A stretch of DNA of 64,000 nt from an uncultured SAR116 cluster alpha proteobacterium (GTDB lineage Bacteria; Pseudomonadota; Alphaproteobacteria; Puniceispirillales; Marisalimonadaceae). The position numbers and the translations under genes are program-made. The stretch lies in the NCBI GenBank assembly GCA_902616005.1, contig CACMRG010000005.1:1-64000 (forward strand), written 5' to 3'. This document shows positions 7,501-17,759 of this stretch, one piece after another. The notes under the pieces were generated by a model, which had not been told where the DNA came from, made no database searches, and worked only from the letters and a program-made list of their open reading frames with translations. Within the stretch, counting starts at the first letter, position 1. The number at the start of each line of letters is the position of its first letter.

Positions 7501-8625
7501 TTATAGCCTCTTAATTTTCTGAATATAAATAACAATTTCTTTTACCTCATCTCTAATTTGCATTTCTACTTCATCATCAATCCATTTATCTAACCACTTC
7601 TTTGGTATTCCATTTCTTACTCTAGAATTTTTCCATTTTAATGATCTAAGTATTACTTTACATTTTTCAGTTAATTCAGATTTAAGAAGTTTCTCTTTTG
7701 AATTTAATACTAACCAATTACCAGCCCAAGCTTTTGCGGTTATATAAGGATTATATCCACCACCACCTAAAATAAGAGTTTTTGGGGATATATCTTTTAA
7801 CTTAGAAATTGTATGCCAGTATGTAGAATTTGATAATATCATTTTTGACTGTGGATCATCTCTTAGACTATCAGTGCCTGCTTGAATAATTGTGATATCT
7901 GGATTTAAGGTTTTACAATAAGGAATTATTAATTCATTTAAAACAAAAAGCATTTCATTATCATTAAAACTTTCAGGAACCGGTATATTCATTAAATTGT
8001 TAATTTTTGACTCTTCTATTTTCCCAGTTCTTGGCCATTTATTTTTTTCATGTATTGATATTAATTGTACATTGTCATTATCAAAGAAGTAATCCTGAAC
8101 CGCATCACAATGATGCGCATCCAAATCAATATATAAAATTTTGCTAAACCCAAATTCTTTAGCTTTTAAGATTGCTAGTATGCAATCATTTAAAAAACAA
8201 AAGCCTGAAGCATAATTTTTTCTTCCATGATGTGTTCCACCAGAAAAATTTAAAATTTTTTCTGCTTTACCAGATGCTAAAAATTCTATTGCTCTCATAG
8301 AAGATTTTGCTGCTGAAGCTGGCCTTGAGTAAACTTCTTTAAATATTGGATTTACACCAACACCTAGATTATATTTTTCCTTCTCTTTAAATTCTAAATC
8401 TTGAAACTTTTCAGCTTTTTGCAAAATTCTTAAATAATCAATATCATGAAATATTGTTAATTCATCAATGCTAGCAGGTTCATTAAATACTAATTGATCA
8501 TTAGAGACCCAATTCATAATTTTTAACAGGTCTAAACTTGGCCAAACTCTATCAATATTTAAAGGATGTCCTTCACCATATCGTGATCCTTTAAAAATTT
8601 TGCTAGAAAAAAGAAAATTTTTCAT
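7501..8625 (-). CDS. Histone deacetylase family (AcuC/acetylpolyamine amidohydrolase-like) hydrolase
   Basis: A 374-residue zinc amidohydrolase of the arginase/deacetylase fold. Visible active-site residues are His132-His133, the Zn ligands Asp169 and His171 (context DLDAHHCD), a third ligand Asp252 (QAGTDSL) and the catalytic Tyr291 (GGGGYNP). The usual HHGDG is HHCDA here. It probably removes acetyl groups from a small molecule (acetoin pathway, polyamine) or from a protein lysine. The divergent permease gene starts only six bases away. The stop lies in front of the DUF192 leader frame, so the two may be cotranscribed. Confidence 0.87.
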   Translation of the reverse strand: MKNFLFSSKIFKGSRYGEGHPLNIDRVWPSLDLLKIMNWVSNDQLVFNEPASIDELTIFHDIDYLRILQKAEKFQDLEFKEKEKYNLGVGVNPIFKEVYSRPASAAKSSMRAIEFLASGKAEKILNFSGGTHHGRKNYASGFCFLNDCILAILKAKEFGFSKILYIDLDAHHCDAVQDYFFDNDNVQLISIHEKNKWPRTGKIEESKINNLMNIPVPESFNDNEMLFVLNELIIPYCKTLNPDITIIQAGTDSLRDDPQSKMILSNSTYWHTISKLKDISPKTLILGGGGYNPYITAKAWAGNWLVLNSKEKLLKSELTEKCKVILRSLKWKNSRVRNGIPKKWLDKWIDDEVEMQIRDEVKEIVIYIQKIKRL

Positions 8626-8631
8626 TTTAGT

Positions 8632-9378
8632 ATGCTATTTATATTTATAGGTATGTTTAGAGTATTTGTTACATTTTTAATCATTATTATTTTTTGGTAT
8701 ATTATTTGTTTATTATTTGAATTACCATCTTTCATTTTACCTTCACCTTATTTAGTAGCAATTGCTTTATTTAATAATTTTTCAGAAATTTTAAATCATT
8801 CATCAATCACTTTATTAGAGATTTTATTATCTTTATTTTTCGGAATAGTTTTAGGAAGTTTTTTTGCAGTTTTAATATCTTTATCTGAGAAACTAAAAAG
8901 ATGGGTTATGCCTTTATTAATAGCTAGTCAATCAATACCAGTATTTGCCTTAGCTCCAATTTTGGTTTTATGGTTTGGTTATGGAATATCAAGTAAAGTT
9001 ATTATAGGAACTATAATTGTTTTCTTTCCTATCGCGTCAAACTTTTCGGATGCACTAAATAAAATCCCTAAAGAATATATCAATGCTGGGCAAACACTAG
9101 GTTTTTCAAGGTTGCAAATCTTTAACTTAATTAAACTCCCAAATGCATTACCTGGACTTTTTTCTGGTATAAGAGTTGGAGCTTGTTTTGCACCTATCGG
9201 AGCAGTTGTTGGTGAATGGATTGGAGGAAGTCAAGGATTAGGATCTTATATGATCTATAGTAATGCAAGATTGCAAATTGATAATATGTTTGCTGCGTTA
9301 ATAATTTTAATTATTATTACTATCTCGCTTTACCATCTAATTGACTTAATACTTAAAAAGTTGATTTGGTGGGAATAA
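8632..9378 (+). CDS. ABC transporter permease, ThiX-type (thiamine precursor uptake)
   Basis: A 248-residue inner-membrane permease of the SsuC/TauC/ThiX (BPD_transp_1) family with about six hydrophobic segments. The EAA-type loop, residues about 140-160, reads IPKEYINAGQTLGFSRLQIF. The assignment to thiamine-precursor transport rests on the next gene (ThiY-like) and the TPP riboswitch between them. The first ATG lies six bases from the divergent AcuC-like start; ATG 8653, preceded by TATAGG, could be the true start. No ATP-binding partner (ThiZ) is present in the window. Confidence 0.83.
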   Translation: MLFIFIGMFRVFVTFLIIIIFWYIICLLFELPSFILPSPYLVAIALFNNFSEILNHSSITLLEILLSLFFGIVLGSFFAVLISLSEKLKRWVMPLLIASQSIPVFALAPILVLWFGYGISSKVIIGTIIVFFPIASNFSDALNKIPKEYINAGQTLGFSRLQIFNLIKLPNALPGLFSGIRVGACFAPIGAVVGEWIGGSQGLGSYMIYSNARLQIDNMFAALIILIIITISLYHLIDLILKKLIWWE

Positions 9379-9415
9379 TTCAGTTTACATCAAATTAGAG
9401 TTAATGCAATATTAT

Positions 9416-9489
9416 AACCTAACAGGGGTGCTTTTTATGCTGAGATATACCCTATAAACCTGATCTAGATAATGCTAGCGGAGGGAGTT
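9416..9489 (+). promoter_or_regulatory. TPP riboswitch (THI box)
   Basis: Conserved TPP-aptamer elements occur in order: CAGGGGTGC, CTGAGA followed by ATACCC, ACCTGATCTAGATAATG, and the 3' strand GCGGAGGGAG. The 3' strand doubles as the ribosome-binding site (GGAGG) for the gene starting at 9494, so TPP binding would be expected to hide the start region and switch off translation. The element sits downstream of the permease gene, not at the head of the transport operon. Confidence 0.95.
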
Positions 9490-9493
9490 CATT

Positions 9494-10429
9494 ATGCGAT
9501 TATTATCTTTAGTTTTATTTTTTAATTTTATTTTTTACTCATCATTTGCTACATCAAATGAAAATAACATAAAAATAGGATTAGACTGGTTTATTAATCC
9601 AGATCATGCACCAATTATTATAGCCGAACAATATGGTTATTTTAAAGAAGACGGATTACAAGTTGAAATCATTGAGCCTGCTGACCCTAATGATCCACCT
9701 AAACAAGTTGCAGCTGGAAAAATTGATATTGCTATATCTTATCAACCACAATTTCATTTACAAATTGATCAATCGCTACCAATTGTAAGACTTGGATCTT
9801 TAGTTAGCACACCATTAAATAGTCTTGTGGTTTTAAAAGATGGACCAATAAAATCTATAAAAGATCTTAAAAATAAAAAAATAGGTTTTTCTGTTGGTGG
9901 GTTTGAAGATGCACTTTTGTCAGGAATGTTTGATAAATACGGATTAAGATTATCAGATGTTCAACTAATTAATATTAATTTTTCACTATCACCTTCATTA
10001 ATTTCAAAAAAAGTAGACGCAGTAATTGGAGCATTTAGAAACTTTGAACTTAATCAAATGGATATTGTAAACCGACCTGGAAAAGCCTTCTACCCAGAGG
10101 AACACGGAGTTCCTCATTATGAAGAATTGATTTACATCATTAATAAAAATGATAGAAAAAAACAAAAGTTTAATAGTTTTCTAAAAGCAATTCAAAAAGC
10201 TACAATTAAAATTGTTAATAGCCCTGAAGAAACATGGAAAGATTTTTCAAGTTATAAAAAAGGGTTAAACGATGAACTAAATAAAAGAGCTTATCGAGAT
10301 ACTGTTAGAAGATTTACCTTACGTCCTAGTGCTTACGATTTAGAGGCTTATAAAGTTTTTCAAAATTTTCTATACAATAAAAAAATAATCAAAAAGATAC
10401 ATAATATTGAATTATTCATTAAACCATGA
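9494..10429 (+). CDS. thiY: ThiY/NMT1-like thiamine-precursor (HMP-type) binding protein
   Basis: A 311-residue periplasmic binding protein with a signal peptide (residues 1 to about 20) and the ThiY/THI5 hallmark LDWFINPDHAPIIIAEQ at the start of the mature part. Further family segments are DPPKQVAAGKIDIAISYQ and KKIGFSVGGFED. It delivers a pyrimidine precursor of thiamine to the ThiX-type permease. Direct control by the TPP riboswitch upstream supports the assignment. The gene runs into the antiporter operon with only 13 bases to mnhE, or overlaps it if an earlier mnhE start is used. Confidence 0.92.
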   Translation: MRLLSLVLFFNFIFYSSFATSNENNIKIGLDWFINPDHAPIIIAEQYGYFKEDGLQVEIIEPADPNDPPKQVAAGKIDIAISYQPQFHLQIDQSLPIVRLGSLVSTPLNSLVVLKDGPIKSIKDLKNKKIGFSVGGFEDALLSGMFDKYGLRLSDVQLININFSLSPSLISKKVDAVIGAFRNFELNQMDIVNRPGKAFYPEEHGVPHYEELIYIINKNDRKKQKFNSFLKAIQKATIKIVNSPEETWKDFSSYKKGLNDELNKRAYRDTVRRFTLRPSAYDLEAYKVFQNFLYNKKIIKKIHNIELFIKP

Positions 10430-10442
10430 TTATATTCAAATC

Positions 10443-10919
10443 ATGATTAATAGTAAAAGTATTGCATTATTCTTATTTTTATTTGGTTTTTGGCTATTAA
10501 TGTCCGGCCATTATACGGTTTTAATTACTTCGCTTGGTGTTGTTTCTTGTTTGTTATGTGTTTACTTAACAATCAAAGGAAATTTTTTAGATAACGAAAC
10601 CATACCGATCTATTTTTTTCCTCGATTAATTCAATATACAATTTGGTTAATCAAAGAAATCTTTATATCAAATATAACAACAGCTAAAGTTATTTTATCT
10701 AAATCAGAAGAACCAGAATTATTCTCTGTTAAAGCTTCACAAAAAACAAATGAAGGAAAAGTAACCTATGCAAATTCTATTACGCTTACACCTGGGACTG
10801 TAACCACACAAATAAAAGATAACGTATTTGAAGTTCATGCATTGACTAAAGAGTTTGGTGATGATGTTAGAGGTTCTGAGATGGACAGAATGGTAACTTG
10901 GTTAGAAAAAGGTAAATAA
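10443..10919 (+). CDS. mnhE: Na+/H+ antiporter subunit E (MnhE/MrpE)
   Basis: A 158-residue membrane protein of the MnhE family: two or three N-terminal hydrophobic segments, then the conserved region with YFFPRLIQYTIWLIKEI and NSITLTPGTVTTQI, ending with a short charged tail (DRMVTWLEKGK). ATG 10443 is chosen; a start at 10407 would add 12 polar residues and overlap the previous gene. It is first in the Mrp-type operon. The end overlaps mnhF by one base (TAATG). Confidence 0.9.
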   Translation: MINSKSIALFLFLFGFWLLMSGHYTVLITSLGVVSCLLCVYLTIKGNFLDNETIPIYFFPRLIQYTIWLIKEIFISNITTAKVILSKSEEPELFSVKASQKTNEGKVTYANSITLTPGTVTTQIKDNVFEVHALTKEFGDDVRGSEMDRMVTWLEKGK

Positions 10920-11179
10920 TGTTTTTAGCTGTTTTGATTGCTCTTGCAGTTTCTTTTTTGTTAATTTTAGTTCGTTTGATTATTGGGAAAACTACATATG
11001 ACAGAATTTTAGCTGCAAATAGTATTGGTACTATAATAGTTTTAGGAATTTCTGTTCATGGTTTTTATATGGGCAGACCTGAATTTGTAGATATTTCTAT
11101 AGTCTATGCACTAATAAATTTTATTGGAACAGTAGCTGTTTTAAAACTTTTTGATAAAGGAACTCTGGGGGATAAATAA
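10919..11179 (+). CDS. mnhF: Na+/H+ antiporter subunit F (MnhF/MrpF)
   Basis: An 86-residue protein with three hydrophobic helices, of normal MnhF size. The conserved segment YDRILAANSIGT (residues about 27-38) and the C-terminal IVYALINFIGTVAVLKL identify the family. It is coupled to mnhE by a one-base overlap and followed immediately by mnhG. It is a small membrane subunit of the cation/proton antiporter complex. Confidence 0.9.
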   Translation: MFLAVLIALAVSFLLILVRLIIGKTTYDRILAANSIGTIIVLGISVHGFYMGRPEFVDISIVYALINFIGTVAVLKLFDKGTLGDK

Positions 11180-11503
11180 ATGTTAGATCTCTTAATTCAA
11201 ATAATATCCATAATATCTTTTGTAGGTGGAGTTTTTTTTATATTAACTGGATCACTAGGTCTAATAAGATTACCAGATGTTTTTTCCCGAATTCATGCAG
11301 CTGGAATGATTGATACAGCAGGAGTTTCATTTATAATATTAGGAATGATTTTACAAAGCGGCTTTTCATTAATCACTGCAAAATTAATGTTTATTGGAAT
11401 TTTTATATTTTTCACAAGTCCTATTACAAGTCATATAACTGCAAACCTAGCTAGAAAAAAAGGTGTTGATCCTGTAGGAAAGACAAAAGGTAAAACTCTA
11501 TGA
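11180..11503 (+). CDS. mnhG: Na+/H+ antiporter subunit G (MnhG/MrpG)
   Basis: A 107-residue protein with three hydrophobic segments and the MnhG signature GSLGLIRLPDVFSRIHAAG (residues about 24-42), followed by SPITSHITANLARKKG. It starts on the base after the mnhF stop and overlaps the next gene by four bases (ATGA), a tight operon junction. Confidence 0.92.
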   Translation: MLDLLIQIISIISFVGGVFFILTGSLGLIRLPDVFSRIHAAGMIDTAGVSFIILGMILQSGFSLITAKLMFIGIFIFFTSPITSHITANLARKKGVDPVGKTKGKTL

Positions 11504-12069
11504 TAGGCGAAATTATAATAAATGCATTTCTCGTAACCCTAATGTTAACAATAGCAATATTTATTATTAACACTCGAAAAGTGATATCAACTATATTATT
11601 AACTGGTACATATTCTCTAGTAGCAGCTCTTATGTTTGTAAGTCTAGATGCAGTAGATGTTGCATTTACAGAAGCATCTGTTGGCGCAGGAATTTCAACA
11701 ATATTATTCTTAGCAGCTTTAAGCTATCTTCCAAGAGAGGAAAAAGAAGAAAAATTTAATGTAAAACATATTTATGCTATCTGCACATGTACAATAATTG
11801 CAGGATTATTAATTTGGGCCAGCTATGATTTGCCGCTAGTTGGTCAATTAGAAAACCCTGTTCATCAAAACCTTGCACAAGACTTCATTGAAGGATCACG
11901 AAACCATATAGGGATACCAAATGTAGTTACTTCAATTCTTGCAAGCTATAGGGGATATGACACTTTTGGCGAAACAGTTGTTATATACACAGCTGGAATC
12001 GCTGTATTAGTTTTATTGTATGATGGAGTTTCAAAAACATCAAAAATTTATAAGGGGAAAAATAAATAG
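11500..12069 (+). CDS. DUF4040/MbhD-MbhE-like antiporter subunit (detached MrpA C-terminus)
   Basis: A 189-residue membrane protein. Residues 1 to about 75 match the DUF4040 (MbhD) domain, with LLTGTYSLVAALMFVSLDAVDVAFTEASVG as its centre (residues about 34-63). Residues about 90-185 resemble the MbhE-like segment, including SILASYRGYDTFGETVVIYTAG in the second half. In canonical Mrp these domains form the C-terminus of MrpA; here they are a separate gene. The position after mnhG and before mnhB matches the order of the archaeal Mbh membrane module. It overlaps mnhG by four bases. Confidence 0.85.
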   Translation: MIGEIIINAFLVTLMLTIAIFIINTRKVISTILLTGTYSLVAALMFVSLDAVDVAFTEASVGAGISTILFLAALSYLPREEKEEKFNVKHIYAICTCTIIAGLLIWASYDLPLVGQLENPVHQNLAQDFIEGSRNHIGIPNVVTSILASYRGYDTFGETVVIYTAGIAVLVLLYDGVSKTSKIYKGKNK

Positions 12070-12501
12070 ATGGATAATTTAATTTTAAAAGTATGTACAA
12101 AAGTTTTATTTACTCCAATAATTTTGTTTGGTTTATACGTTCAATTTCATGGTGATTTTGGTCCAGGAGGAGGATTTCAAGCTGGCGTTATAGTTGCCGC
12201 GGCTTTTATATTGTATGCAATGGTATTTAGTGTTGAAGATTGTAAAGTGATTATGCCACCAAAATTAAATTTCTTTTTGCTTGCATTGGGGGCCTTTATT
12301 TATGGGTTTGTTGGAATAATTGGGTTAATTTTAGGCGACCCCTATCTGAGTTATGATGTTTTAGGTTCAACAAAAGAAGCTGGTCAACATATAGGTATAT
12401 TGCTTGTTGAGTTTGGAGTTGGTCTAACTGTATGTAATGTAATGATTTCTTTATTTTACTCATTCGCAAATTTTAACTTTGGAAAGAGAAATAATGATTG
12501 A
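12070..12501 (+). CDS. mnhB: Na+/H+ antiporter subunit B (MnhB/MrpB)
   Basis: A 143-residue MnhB-family protein with four hydrophobic segments and the family motif GDFGPGGGFQAGVI (residues about 30-43), then a later conserved stretch with KEAGQHIGILLVEFGVGLTV. It is directly adjacent to the DUF4040 gene and overlaps mnhC by eight bases. Confidence 0.92.
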   Translation: MDNLILKVCTKVLFTPIILFGLYVQFHGDFGPGGGFQAGVIVAAAFILYAMVFSVEDCKVIMPPKLNFFLLALGAFIYGFVGIIGLILGDPYLSYDVLGSTKEAGQHIGILLVEFGVGLTVCNVMISLFYSFANFNFGKRNND

Positions 12502-12886
12502 TCAGATATTTGGTGTATGGAATTACTGGATAGTATTCATTTTAATGATGATAGGACTTTACATTGTCATATCCAAAAAAAGCCTTTTAAAAAAAATAGT
12601 TGGCCTAGCTATCTTCCAAACATCTGTTTTTCTTTTGTATATAACATTCGGGAAAATTGCTGGAGGCACAGCTCCAATTTTAACTAAAAATATAGATGAA
12701 ATATATTCGAACCCTCTTCCACATGTCCTCATACTTACAGCAATTGTTGTTGGTGTTGCGACAACCGCTCTGGGTCTTGCATTAACGGTCAGAATTAACA
12801 AGGCATATGGAACAATTAATGAAGATGAAATTTCTGCATCAGATTTAGTTGAATATCATAAAAAATATCTCGAAGATAATAAATAA
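12494..12886 (+). CDS. mnhC: Na+/H+ antiporter subunit C (MnhC/MrpC, NuoK-like)
   Basis: A 130-residue NuoK-like subunit with three hydrophobic helices and the conserved PLPHVLILTAIVVGVATTALGLAL (residues about 77-100), in which the HVLILTAIVVG segment is diagnostic. The ATG at 12494, preceded by GGAAAGAG, is preferred over an upstream in-frame TTG at 12479. The eight-base overlap with mnhB implies coupling. Confidence 0.92.
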   Translation: MIDQIFGVWNYWIVFILMMIGLYIVISKKSLLKKIVGLAIFQTSVFLLYITFGKIAGGTAPILTKNIDEIYSNPLPHVLILTAIVVGVATTALGLALTVRINKAYGTINEDEISASDLVEYHKKYLEDNK

Positions 12887-12891
12887 AAACG

Positions 12892-14388
12892 ATGTCATTT
12901 ATAATTAAAAATTTACCTATCCTTATCGTTATAACACCTTTGATGTTCTCACTGATAGTTGCAGTTCTAACTAACAATAGAATAGCATGGTCCCTTTCTA
13001 CTTTTGCATCTTTTTTAACAATGATATTCACAATTCTTCTTAGCTTTGAAGTTTCTGATAGAAGTAACATTTCATATTATTTAGGTAATTGGCCACCACC
13101 ACTCGGCATAGAATATGTTATTGATACAATAAGTATAATTCCAATTATGATAGTTTCAGTTATTGGCTTAATAGCTACATTATTTGCCCATAATTTTATT
13201 ACTTTAGAAATTGATAAAAAACTTGTTTCTAAAACTTATAGTTTATGGTTGCTAACAATCGCGGGTTTGATTGGCTTAATCACAACAGCTGATGCTTTTA
13301 ACCTTTTTGTTTTTCTAGAAATTTCATCACTATCTGCAGTAGCACTTGTTGCATTAGGATCAAAAGTAGATAGGAAAGCTTTAGTTGCAGGCTATAATTA
13401 CTTAATTTTGGGTGCAGTTGGCGCAACTTTTTATGTGATTGGAGTTGGACTACTATATGGTGTGACTGGTACATTAAATATGGGTGATTTGGCTCAAAAA
13501 ATTCCAACTCTAGGACTAAATAAATCAGTTATAGTTGCATTCACATTTATGATGTTAGGTATAATGGTCAAAGCAGCAGTTTTTCCTTTACATATATGGT
13601 TGCCAAATGCATATGCTTATGCTCCGTCACCAGTTTCTGTTTTGTTAGCTGCTACAGCAACAAAAGTTTCTATATATATTTTAGTTAGAATTTCATACAC
13701 CATTTTTGGATCTTCATATGAAATTTATTCATTTGAAAGTCTTAGATATATATTATTATACCTTGCAATTTTAGCGATGTTTGCAGGAACCATTATGGCA
13801 ATATTCGAAAAAGATGTAAAAAAACTATTGGCGCATTCTTCAGTTGCACAAATTGGATATATCGTTCTTGGCATTTCTTTGGCAACAAGTCCAGGAATTG
13901 CTTCAAGTTTTATTCATCTAATAAATCACGCTCTTATTAAAGCTGGCTTATTTATGTCAATAGTAGCCATGGGATACTATACTTTAAAAAGAATAGATGT
14001 GAAAACGATAGCTGGGCTGGGAAGGCAATTACCAATTACTTTTTTTTCTTTTGTGATTTGTGCTCTTAGTTTAGCAGGACTACCATTAACGGTAGGATTT
14101 ATATCAAAACTTTATCTAATTAAAGCAGCTTATATGAGCGAAGGAATATGGCTTCCTTTTTTAATTTTAGTAAGTTCAGCTTTGTCATTAATCTATATCT
14201 GGAAGTTAATCGAAGGTCTCTGGTATAATGAAAAGAGTTTAAAAATTGAAAAAATTAAAGAATTGCCTGAAATTTATTTACCACTTTTAGTCATTACTTT
14301 TTTAAATATTTATTTTGGTATAGACGCAGGTTTAATAATTGATAATAGCTTTATTGCCTCTGATGCATTAATGAGTGGAATCAAATAA
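12892..14388 (+). CDS. mnhD: Antiporter subunit D, NuoN/MrpD-like (first of three)
   Basis: A 498-residue polytopic protein of the NuoL/M/N (Proton_antipo_M) family with about 14 hydrophobic helices. The proposed proton-path residues are kept: Glu in NLFVFLEISSLS (helix 5), Lys in MVKAAVFPLHIWLPNAYAYAP (helix 7) and a further Lys in KLLAHSSVAQIGYI. The LHIWLPNAYA segment is MrpD-like. It shares one base with the next gene (TAATG). Confidence 0.92.
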   Translation: MSFIIKNLPILIVITPLMFSLIVAVLTNNRIAWSLSTFASFLTMIFTILLSFEVSDRSNISYYLGNWPPPLGIEYVIDTISIIPIMIVSVIGLIATLFAHNFITLEIDKKLVSKTYSLWLLTIAGLIGLITTADAFNLFVFLEISSLSAVALVALGSKVDRKALVAGYNYLILGAVGATFYVIGVGLLYGVTGTLNMGDLAQKIPTLGLNKSVIVAFTFMMLGIMVKAAVFPLHIWLPNAYAYAPSPVSVLLAATATKVSIYILVRISYTIFGSSYEIYSFESLRYILLYLAILAMFAGTIMAIFEKDVKKLLAHSSVAQIGYIVLGISLATSPGIASSFIHLINHALIKAGLFMSIVAMGYYTLKRIDVKTIAGLGRQLPITFFSFVICALSLAGLPLTVGFISKLYLIKAAYMSEGIWLPFLILVSSALSLIYIWKLIEGLWYNEKSLKIEKIKELPEIYLPLLVITFLNIYFGIDAGLIIDNSFIASDALMSGIK

Positions 14389-15842
14389 TGACCAATGAAT
14401 TTTATATATATTTATCAATTTTAACCCCCCTTATTGCCTTTTTTACGACTCCTTTATTATCTTCAAATCCGAACTTAAGAGATAGCTTAGGGCCAATAGG
14501 TGGTATTATTACTTTTTACAGTTCTCTCAATATTGCATCACTTTACTTAGATGGAGAGGTTCTTAGTTTCACATTTTTTCAAATAAGCGAAACATTATCT
14601 ATTTCATTTAAGATAACTGGTTTAGGTGTAATTTTTGGATTAGTAGCATCAGGCTTATGGATATTAGCTTCAATTTACACAATTGGTTATATGAGAGGTA
14701 ATAAAGAAAAAAATCAAACAAGATTTTTTACATTTTATTCAATAGCTATATTTGCAGCAATTTGTATTGCCTATTCAGGTAATCTTTTAACATTATTTAT
14801 CTTTTATGAAGTCTTAACATTTTCCACTTATCCTCTAGTAGCTCATAAACAAAATGAAGAGGCTAAAAAAGCTGGAAGACTTTACATGGGTATATTAGTG
14901 GGAACTTCAATTGTTTTTTTACTTCCAGCAATAATTATTGTTTGGGTACTGACAGGTAGTTTGGATTTTTCAGCAAATGGTATTTTAAAAGGTAATATCT
15001 CAAATGAATATGTTCCATTTTTATTGGCATTATTTGCGTTTGGAATTGGTAAAGCCGCATTGATGCCATTTCATAAATGGCTTCCAGCTGCGATGGTAGC
15101 ACCAACTCCTGTATCAGCACTATTGCACGCTGTTGCTGTTGTTAAAGCTGGTGTGTTTTCAATGTTAATTGTCATTACATATGTCTTTGGAATAAATTTT
15201 TTAACTGAAACCAATGGTGCAGTTTGGTTAATATGGATATCAAGTATTACCTTATTGCTGTCAAGTTGTATTGCAATTACTAAAGATGATTTAAAAGCTC
15301 GATTAGCTTATTCTACTATAAGTCAGCTATCATATATAGTGCTTGGAGGTGCCATTGCAACAAATATAGCAGTACAAGGTGCAGCGATTCATATTGTTAT
15401 GCATGCTGTGGGTAAAATTACATTATTTTTTGCAGCAGGTGCAATATATGTTGCAACACATTTGTCAAAAATCTCAGATTTAAATGGAATGGGTAAATCA
15501 ATGCCTTTAACATTTGTAGCTTTCTTCATCGGTTCTTTGTCAATTATTGGCGTACCACCAATGGGTGGATCTTGGAGCAAATTTTACTTAATGTTAGGTT
15601 CTGTTGAGAAAGACTATTTATTAGTTATTTACATTCTCGCAATTTCAACTCTTCTTAATGTTTATTATTTATTAGAAATACCTGCTAAGGCCTTCTTTCA
15701 ACAAAAGAGAACCAATATACAAGTAACTAAGCATCCTTTAACAGTTTATCCAACTTTTTTTGCTGCTATACTTACGATTATTTTGTTTATTTACATAGAA
15801 CCGCTAAAAGATATTACTAACTTAATATTTGGGAATTCATAA
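14388..15842 (+). CDS. Antiporter subunit D-like, NuoM/MrpD family (second of three)
   Basis: A 484-residue polytopic NuoL/M/N-family subunit. Glu in LFIFYEVLTFSTYPL (helix 5), Lys and His in GIGKAALMPFHKWLP, and the double signature TPVSALLHAVAVVKAG are all present, so it looks competent for proton translocation. It is closer to NuoM/MrpA-core-type sequences than the first copy. Its stop shares one base with the start of the 76-residue gene that follows. Confidence 0.9.
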   Translation: MTNEFYIYLSILTPLIAFFTTPLLSSNPNLRDSLGPIGGIITFYSSLNIASLYLDGEVLSFTFFQISETLSISFKITGLGVIFGLVASGLWILASIYTIGYMRGNKEKNQTRFFTFYSIAIFAAICIAYSGNLLTLFIFYEVLTFSTYPLVAHKQNEEAKKAGRLYMGILVGTSIVFLLPAIIIVWVLTGSLDFSANGILKGNISNEYVPFLLALFAFGIGKAALMPFHKWLPAAMVAPTPVSALLHAVAVVKAGVFSMLIVITYVFGINFLTETNGAVWLIWISSITLLLSSCIAITKDDLKARLAYSTISQLSYIVLGGAIATNIAVQGAAIHIVMHAVGKITLFFAAGAIYVATHLSKISDLNGMGKSMPLTFVAFFIGSLSIIGVPPMGGSWSKFYLMLGSVEKDYLLVIYILAISTLLNVYYLLEIPAKAFFQQKRTNIQVTKHPLTVYPTFFAAILTIILFIYIEPLKDITNLIFGNS

Positions 15843-16072
15843 TGATATTATTAAAATTAATAAAAAAGTTTGGGAAAATAAATTCTATAGTTTTATTCAT
15901 TTGCATATTATTATTACTTCTTGAATTTGTAGGCCATAGACATGGTGAATTTAAAATCGAGGAGTTTTTGTTTTTTCCTGCACTTTTTGGATACATTTCA
16001 TGTATTATAATTTTTAAAGTAGGTGTGGCTTTAAGATCAATATTTATGAGAGATGAGGATTATTATGATTAA
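15842..16072 (+). CDS. Small two-helix membrane protein of the antiporter operon
   Basis: A 76-residue protein with two predicted membrane segments (about residues 14-28 and 41-60) separated by a polar stretch containing GHRHGEFKIEEF, and an acidic C-terminus RDEDYYD. I do not recognise the family. It is coupled on both sides, by one base to the preceding D subunit and by eight bases to the next, which argues that it is a genuine accessory subunit and not a chance frame. Confidence 0.75.
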   Translation: MILLKLIKKFGKINSIVLFICILLLLLEFVGHRHGEFKIEEFLFFPALFGYISCIIIFKVGVALRSIFMRDEDYYD

Positions 16073-17759
16073 TTCCTTACCTCCTGGATTTATCATGTTT
16101 ATCGGGGCATTTTTAATCCCCTTCCTTCCTAAGCTTGGTAGACAAGTTTACATGATTTTTTTAGTCCTTTTATCTTCATTTTCATTATTTAATGGGTTTG
16201 GAACTCATTTAACAATTAATGTTCTAGACTATAATTTTATAATAAACCACTCTGACAATCTTTCACTTCCTTTTGCAATTGTTTTCCATATAGCTGCATT
16301 TATCACAATAATCTATGGAAGTCACAAAGATGATTGGAAAGAAAATATAGCTGTTATAAGTTATGCAGGAGCAGCTATTGCTGCATTGCATGCTGGAGAT
16401 TTGTTTACATTATTCTTTTGGTGGGAAGCTACTGCATTTACCTCAGTATTTTTAATTTTGAGTGGTAATAGTACGAGGGCATATAGAGCTGCTTTTAGGT
16501 ATATAGTAATTCAAGTCGGTTCAGGAATGTTTTTACTAGCTGGAGCTGTTTTATTTTTATACACAAATGGAAATGCTCTATTAGGTCAAATGTCAATAGA
16601 TGATACATCAGGTCTTTTAATTTTCCTAGCATTTGGTATCAAAGCTGCGTTTCCATTTCTTAACGGTTGGCTTCAAGATACATACCCTGAAGCAAGTGAA
16701 GTTGGAACTGTAGCATTGTCATCATTTACTACGAAACTAGCAATTTATGCTTTAGCAAGGTCATTTGCAGGAACAGACATACTTATTTATATTGGCGCTT
16801 TAATGACATTCTTTCCTATATTTTTTGCTGTCATAGAAAATGATCTGAGAAGAGTGTTAGCTTATAGCTTAAACAACCAACTTGGTTTTATGGTTGTTGC
16901 AGTTGGTATTGGCACAGAGTTAGCTATTAATGGGGCTGTAGCACATGCATTTGCACATATAATTTATAAAGGCCTTCTATTTATGAGTATGGGTGCTGTT
17001 TTATATAGAGTTGGAACTTGTAAGGGCTCTGAATTAGGAGGCTTATTTAAGTATATGCCTATAACTGCTGTTTGTTCAATAATTGGAGCAATTTCAATTT
17101 CTGCATTCCCACTTTTTAGCGGTTTTGTGGCAAAATCACTAATTATGTCATCATTAGGATACGAAGGCTTATCATTCATTTATTTTATGCTCTTATTTGC
17201 ATCAGCAGGTGTATTACATCATTCTGGAATAAAAATACCATTCTTTGCTTTCTTTGCACATAAATCTGGTCATAAACCCAAAGAAGCACCTTTAAATATG
17301 ATCATTGCAATGGTAATTGGATCAGTATTATGTATATTAATCGGCATATTCCCATCTATTTTTTATCAAATACTTCCTTATTCAGTTGAATACCAACCTT
17401 ATGATTTCAGTCATGTGTTATCTCAATTACAACTTTTAACATTCGCGGCATTTGCTTTTATATGTTTATGGCATTTTAAGATCTATCCACCTGAACTCAA
17501 TTCTACAGTATTAAATAGTGATTGGTTTTATAGAAGAATGTTCCCAGCAGTAATATCAAATATTGTCGATGGGTTAAAAATACTTAATGAAAAATTTTCA
17601 TTAAATTGTTTTAGGAGTTTTAGTACTATTAAAAACTTTTTTCATGATATTATGTTTGAAAACAAAGTGATTGATAGAGAAGCTGGTTTTGATACACAGA
17701 TTGTATTACAAATATTTGGAATAATTGTTTTTATACTGATTTTTATACACCTAAAATAA
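16065..17759 (+). CDS. Antiporter subunit D-like, divergent NuoL/M/N family (third of three)
   Basis: A 564-residue polytopic protein. Helix 5 Glu is kept (LFFWWEATAFTSVFL) and helix 7 Lys is kept (GIKAAFPFLNGWLQDTYPEAS), although the usual PxHxWLP is changed to FPFLNGWLQ. A conserved LRRVLAYSLNNQLGFM follows. An extra C-terminal region of about 150 residues contains a polar loop and a final helix, reminiscent of NuoL-like extensions. ATG 16065 with GAGG seven bases upstream is preferred over ATG 16053. It closes the antiporter operon. Confidence 0.88.
   Translation: MINSLPPGFIMFIGAFLIPFLPKLGRQVYMIFLVLLSSFSLFNGFGTHLTINVLDYNFIINHSDNLSLPFAIVFHIAAFITIIYGSHKDDWKENIAVISYAGAAIAALHAGDLFTLFFWWEATAFTSVFLILSGNSTRAYRAAFRYIVIQVGSGMFLLAGAVLFLYTNGNALLGQMSIDDTSGLLIFLAFGIKAAFPFLNGWLQDTYPEASEVGTVALSSFTTKLAIYALARSFAGTDILIYIGALMTFFPIFFAVIENDLRRVLAYSLNNQLGFMVVAVGIGTELAINGAVAHAFAHIIYKGLLFMSMGAVLYRVGTCKGSELGGLFKYMPITAVCSIIGAISISAFPLFSGFVAKSLIMSSLGYEGLSFIYFMLLFASAGVLHHSGIKIPFFAFFAHKSGHKPKEAPLNMIIAMVIGSVLCILIGIFPSIFYQILPYSVEYQPYDFSHVLSQLQLLTFAAFAFICLWHFKIYPPELNSTVLNSDWFYRRMFPAVISNIVDGLKILNEKFSLNCFRSFSTIKNFFHDIMFENKVIDREAGFDTQIVLQIFGIIVFILIFIHLK

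Follow-up and report, generated by a model that had tools for sequence, protein, structure and literature searches.

The window analysed here is a stretch of 64,000 nucleotides at the start of a contig from the draft genome of an uncultured SAR116-cluster alphaproteobacterium (1.66 Mb in 63 contigs, completeness 78%). Between positions 10407 and 17759 of this window, the ORF map reveals ten plus-strand genes, all abutting or overlapping, in the order mrpE, mrpF, mrpG, DUF4040, mrpB, mrpC, D1, D2, x and D3. Nine of the ten are named by Pfam and NCBIfam, the exception being x.

10407..10919, + strand: mrpE (MbhA-like); Pfam MNHE, 3.5e-23
10919..11179, + strand: mrpF (MbhB-like); Pfam MrpF_PhaF, 4.7e-17
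11180..11503, + strand: mrpG (MbhC-like); Pfam PhaG_MnhG_YufB, 1.5e-22
11500..12069, + strand: DUF4040 gene, 189 aa, corresponding to the C-terminal part of MrpA (MbhD+MbhE-like); MbhD 4.6e-17, MbhE 1.1e-8
12070..12501, + strand: mrpB (MbhF-like); Pfam MnhB, 4.3e-27
12479..12886, + strand: mrpC (MbhG/NuoK-like); Oxidored_q2, 2.5e-23; best PDB match MbsG, 1e-22
12892..14388, + strand: D1, 498 aa, MrpD/MbsH counterpart; top PDB matches MbsH 9.2e-70 and MrpD 6.2e-56; placed by tree
14388..15842, + strand: D2, 484 aa, counterpart of the N-terminal part of MrpA without lateral helix; best PDB match NdhF/NuoL; placed by tree
15842..16072, + strand: x, 76 aa, two predicted transmembrane helices; conserved across loci, in no known family
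16053..17759, + strand: D3, 568 aa, additional antiporter-like subunit; NCBIfam PRK12668, 643 bits (cut-off 564); tree and model

The start of mrpE is ambiguous (TTG at 10407 or ATG at 10443). Pfam Proton_antipo_M matches the three large subunits at 1.1e-60, 1.3e-53 and 5.1e-36, and chance ORFs are ruled out by the Pfam and NCBIfam E-values; among the NCBIfam models matched above their cut-offs are PRK12504 (DUF4040), PRK12508 (B) and PRK12668 (D3). The cluster is flanked upstream by an ABC permease and a binding protein and downstream by unrelated genes. More precisely, positions 7501-10429 ahead of it hold a gene that looks deacetylase-like by eye, the ABC permease and a binding protein of the SsuA type, with no ATPase gene between, and a trio resembling this one by eye also precedes the cluster at locus L108.

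The first-pass annotation had given the order as E, F, G, DUF4040, B, C, D, which the ORF map and family matches confirm, and the genes it listed are real, but it overlooked the 76-aa gene between D2 and D3. The split of MrpA that it described also stands, DUF4040 being a separate upstream gene and D2 (484 aa) ending after the antiporter fold.

Class of the system and spread of its gene order

All Mrp subunit domains from A to G are encoded together in the cluster (Pfam and NCBIfam), while full-length mrpA is absent and several mrpD-like genes are present, which are traits of group 3 Mrp; this group is defined, in the available excerpt of PMC8415708, by a missing mrpA plus at least one mrpD. 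The joined N- and C-terminal mrpA of groups 1 and 2 was not found in the cluster, nor were nuo genes, as expected of the so-called green complex I, found around D2-x-D3, which is preceded by E to D1 and followed by unrelated genes. As judged by its gene content, the cluster belongs to group 3 Mrp, a type of system already described; its arrangement is already covered by NCBIfam and in print, and the cluster itself is ordinary. Its Mbh-like order, proposed from the start, indeed matches that of MBH/MBS in the excerpt of PMC8415708, which also gives the gene order mrpEFGBB'CD for Pyrococcus furiosus. The further suggestion that this order is foreign to bacteria was wrong: as far as the excerpts of PMC8415708 and PMC7784846 go, it is the published group 3 layout, with two NuoM/NuoL-like genes after mrpD in a Nitrospira group 3 Mrp (PMC7784846), and it occurs across Pseudomonadota, Planctomycetota and Nitrospirota among the matches listed.

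D3 exceeds the PRK12668 cut-off in 58 of 81 relatives' genomes and in 71 of 289 class genomes, and is detected at E up to 1e-100 in 78 of the 281 class genomes with completeness of at least 90% and contamination of at most 5%. Scanning GTDB genomes yielded at least 586 confirmed stretches, of which the best 80 (hereafter the named loci) come from Alpha-, Beta- and Gammaproteobacteria, Planctomycetota and one Nitrospira. Close copies among the matches listed are from SAR116-cluster Alphaproteobacteria (L100 and L102, D3 96 and 98% identical). A class-sample set of 40 loci, chosen from the relatives' and class genomes, overlaps the named set (L055 and L102, for instance, are both from contigs with a length of 138605). 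E, F, G, DUF4040, C, D1, D2, x and D3 follow one another in this order on a single strand in 38/40 class-sample loci, the two exceptions being cut by a contig end (L066) or without detectable x (L088). Among the best 80 of at least 586 loci, these nine markers are in order in 65, 14 are incomplete and one (L108) is apparently chimeric; 13 of the 14 incomplete loci start at or near the locus end, the exception being L161. In L108, a single-cell contig excluded from the in-order count, the cluster halves are inverted, with the E-D2 genes on the opposite strand, and the x match (39 bits) is fused to part of another gene; it is probably a single-cell assembly chimera. B is a separate ORF in 34/38 class-sample loci and in 56/66 named loci (from the best 80 of at least 586), and the class-sample loci without it have a longer DUF4040 ORF, suggesting a B-DUF4040 fusion.

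The large subunits and the small protein x

A maximum-likelihood tree of 71 rows, in which long branches leave the deepest joins unsure, places the three large subunits in separate clades: D1 (98/95) joins MrpD, NuoN and MbsH at 94/98, D2 (100/100, including haloarchaeal and green complex I copies) stands beside MrpA, NuoL and HyfD (96/84), and D3 forms with its copies a third clade (100/100). The PDB sequence search retrieved MbsH and MrpD with D1, and NdhF/NuoL followed by MrpA among others with D2, while D3 matches all large subunits weakly. These deep separate clades rule out a recent duplication, and the phylogeny that the first-pass annotation had called for did not return recent duplicates with one inactive copy; D1, D2 and D3 are, to judge from this tree, old paralogues. 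The claim that three antiporter-like subunits replace the usual two is right in their number but needs correction: since D1 groups with MrpD, NuoN and MbsH, and D2 stands beside MrpA and NuoL, these two are the MrpD and MrpA-N counterparts and only D3 is extra. MrpA is present as two pieces, D2 and DUF4040, and D3 as a true addition.

Family matches and the residue check uphold the earlier statement that all three are antiporter-like and carry the helix-5 Glu and the helix-7 Lys. Residues were compared with Bacillus pseudofirmus Mrp (7qru), with positions counted along printed pairwise alignments and essential residues and phenotypes taken from the available part of PMC5703873. D1 keeps MrpD E137 and K219; DUF4040 aligns to MrpA 638-795 and retains R773 and E780 as R151 and E158; mrpE keeps the T113-P114 pair of MrpE, mrpF the Asp-Arg of MrpF D32-R33, mrpG the Pro of MrpG P81, mrpB P37 and F41, and mrpC T75. 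Most residues essential in Bacillus Mrp are thus kept, the exceptions being MrpC Q70 (His) and G82 (Ala) and MrpA E687, which in DUF4040 is a Gly with a Glu one turn (four residues) before it, an arrangement shared with MbhD/MbsD; all three changes count against the reading preferred below. Among the relatives listed (ORFs >400 aa only), the helix-5 Glu and helix-7 Lys are each present in 107/107 D1 and 113/113 D2 copies, and the 120 D3 copies have Glu5 in 119, Lys7 in 115, Lys8 in 119 and Lys12 in 119, all four being retained in the D3 of the window. The helix-7 Lys is replaced by Arg, Asn or Ser in the D3 of L073, L083, L086, L088 and L092. As it is lost in 5/120 relatives, D3 is possibly not a pump in every lineage.

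The AlphaFold2 model of D3, built from 53 sequences, reaches a pLDDT of 89.1 and closes with a 47-residue helix (residues 490-536) followed by a last helix (546-567). Its best fold matches are NuoL chains and the N-terminal part of MrpA, many rows being tied within one Z unit; 7qru_A, ranked first in Foldseek, aligns at Z 42.2 and 2.5 Å over 502 residues, the last 28 residues of D3 being barely covered in one structural comparison. The region of the helix end is less certain (mean pLDDT 59-60 over residues 531-550), which also counts against the preferred reading. D3 is thereby predicted to carry a lateral helix of the NuoL/MrpA type. The ORF map gives D2 no such C-terminal tail, and from this distribution we infer that D3 most likely forms the distal end of the arm.

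The small gene x occupies the position between D2 and D3 in almost every bacterial locus, being detected in 39/40 class-sample loci and in 79/80 named loci (best 80 of at least 586), including the weak, chimeric L108. Its modelled product (76 residues, pTM 0.49) consists of two helices joined by a loop that contains a conserved His, and its C-terminal tail is EDYYD-like. In an alignment of 48 members, M1, H34, F45, G50, R65, R70, E72 and Y74 are nearly invariant and Y75 is invariant. Searches with x gave at best 0.002 in Pfam and 1.3 among PDB sequences, and the NCBIfam search of its members peaked at 7.5e-4 with an AmoC model, a match taken as chance because it reaches E up to 1 in only 4/48 members, the window copy not among them. 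Foldseek found no PDB match to the x model at E up to 10, and a two-helix model of this size and pTM cannot settle kinship. As a predicted protein, x is conserved and in no known family of Pfam, NCBIfam or the PDB, and no description was found in the Mrp literature searched, that on the rhizobial complex I variant being incompletely covered. Chadwick et al. 2018 is reportedly a paper on that variant. Should x prove to be a genuine subunit, the family libraries searched lack a conserved component of a large, widespread complex.

D2, x and D3 also occur together elsewhere. Plasmid p1 of Ensifer adhaerens (L096) carries nuoJ, nuoK, D2, x (52 bits), D3, nuoM, nuoN and then other nuo genes, nuoL being absent from the stretch displayed; rhizobial complexes of this sort, with two MrpD-like subunits instead of NuoL, have been named green complex I (PMC9040806). 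In the metagenome-assembled genome of L161, D2-x-D3 (8160-11707) stands without E-D1 despite about 8 kb of upstream sequence. The L161 block adjoins divergent genes, by eye an apparent fused transporter permease and binding proteins. These two contexts indicate that x travels with D2 and D3 and not with the sodium half. We tentatively propose, at slightly less than even odds, that D2-x-D3 is a portable module of two pumps that brings along an undescribed two-helix subunit. Placed at the end of differing complex I-like arms (stand-alone Mrp, complex I where it replaces NuoL, and perhaps alone in L161), it would lengthen the arm and raise the number of ions moved in each cycle, x linking the two pumps. 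Three points exceed routine annotation: the protein x, the recurrence of D2-x-D3 in other settings and the lateral helix predicted for D3; x and the portable block merit attention.

Proposed working, alternatives and genomic context

We assign a probability of roughly 0.8 to the cluster encoding one stand-alone group 3 Mrp, a secondary Na+/H+ antiporter with a three-subunit proton arm. The genes, their order, the conserved residues and the phylogeny enter this reading as observed, and the lateral helix enters as predicted. E, F, G, B, the DUF4040 protein and C would make up the sodium-carrying half, and D1 (MrpD), D2 (MrpA-N) and D3 a proton arm matching the complex I arm in length, with D3 at its far end bracing it by the lateral helix and x placed with D2 and D3. 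H+ inflow driven by the proton motive force would expel Na+ and contribute to Na+ and pH homeostasis. Assembly as one complex, the positions of D3 and x, the ion and the direction of transport are those we consider most plausible, and a ratio of H+ per Na+ above that of a two-pump Mrp is a guess.

D3 could instead be a non-pumping structural brace that supplies MrpA's lateral helix to an ordinary two-pump Mrp. The C-terminal extension in D3 and not in D2 would suit such a role, as would the helix-7 Lys substitutions in the five relatives and the Asn found there in the copies from haloarchaea and from the Ensifer complex I; however, the near-complete conservation of the four residues, all kept in the window, argues for a pump and makes the brace unlikely, if credible. 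That the transported ion is K+ or Ca2+ rather than Na+ appears less probable still: Mrp-type systems are reported with other ions, such as Ca2+ (excerpt of PMC5703873), and three DUF4040/MrpC positions differ from Bacillus Mrp, but the DUF4040 difference resembles MbhD/MbsD, Na+ is published for P. furiosus MBH and stand-alone Mrp (excerpt of PMC8415708), and the host clade is marine.

We consider it very improbable that the cluster is the membrane arm of an Mbh/Mbs- or complex I-like redox complex whose oxidoreductase is encoded elsewhere, despite an order identical to MBH/MBS (excerpt of PMC8415708) and the presence of D2-x-D3 within the Ensifer complex I operon. As the first-pass annotation had stated, no hydrogenase or quinone module is attached: none appears among the family matches of the ORFs at 5.5-24 kb of the window, no such redox subunit is matched beside the cluster, and PF00346 (NuoD/hydrogenase large subunit) has no match in the source genome, so that the hydrogenase-like module accompanying the arm in MBH/MBS was found neither beside the cluster nor, by PF00346, in this genome. 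Given its completeness of 78%, the absence of NuoD and NqrA from the source genome weighs little, and PF00346 and NqrA were also searched in same-family genomes, counted by hand over four genera (g1-g4), with no support for a partner elsewhere. In g2/g3, NuoD is found in 0/33 genomes, NqrA in 25/33 and D3 above cut-off in 26/33 (20 having both NqrA and D3), while the 16 genomes of g1/g4, source genome included, have NuoD in nine, NqrA in none and D3 above cut-off in ten. Six g2/g3 genomes at least 90% complete have D3 and NqrA without a NuoD homologue, which argues that no complex I partner is needed.

Relatives lacking a NuoD homologue thus keep the cluster alongside Na+-NQR. The loss of complex I beside a kept Mrp was discarded as a new finding, the exchange of nuo for nqr, with a nuoL gene beside nqr, being already published for SAR116 genera LGC2-C and LGC2-D in the available part of PMC8547437. 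In agreement with that text, a same-family genome (G016; L183:2197-9812) shows an nqr-type operon with a solitary NuoL-like gene of 564 aa after it. Our addition is only that the Mrp cluster is kept. The ATP synthase c subunit has LTEAVALF at the ion site in the four genomes tried (4/4), which we take to be of the H+ type without the Na+ motif; in NQR-bearing relatives something should accordingly exchange Na+ for H+. An Mrp exchanging Na+ and H+ is compatible with both NQR and NuoD backgrounds.

Comparison with known systems

Mrp is related to complex I but simpler, and the present one bears on how the number of antiporter-like subunits sets the ion ratio: a common natural Mrp that has three such subunits, like complex I, and is Na+-coupled and not redox-coupled would permit a direct test of that relation. 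Bacillus-type group 1 and actinobacterial-type group 2 Mrp share its subunit families and most essential residues, but have a single-gene MrpA, the order A to G and two large subunits. The stand-alone Mrp of P. furiosus and the MBH/MBS arm share the order E F G B B' C D and a separate MbhD/E-like gene (excerpt of PMC8415708); the former has one large subunit and neither D2, x nor D3, whereas MBH/MBS carry redox modules. The group 3 Mrp of Ca. Nitrospira alkalitolerans likewise has mrpD followed by two further NuoM/NuoL-like genes, described as annotation only and with no mention of x in the available excerpt of PMC7784846, and a Nitrospira MAG (L149) shows the full order including x, as in the window. 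A plasmid of Haloterrigena alkaliphila (L097) has E-F-G-DUF4040-B-C-D1-D2-D3, with large subunits in the matching clades, but this haloarchaeal cluster is without x between D2 and D3. The Ensifer green complex I, finally, differs in that its block takes, within a full complex I, the place of nuoL, with nuoJ-K on one side and nuoM-N on the other, and shares with the window the D2-x-D3 order, its D2 and D3 falling in the same clades.
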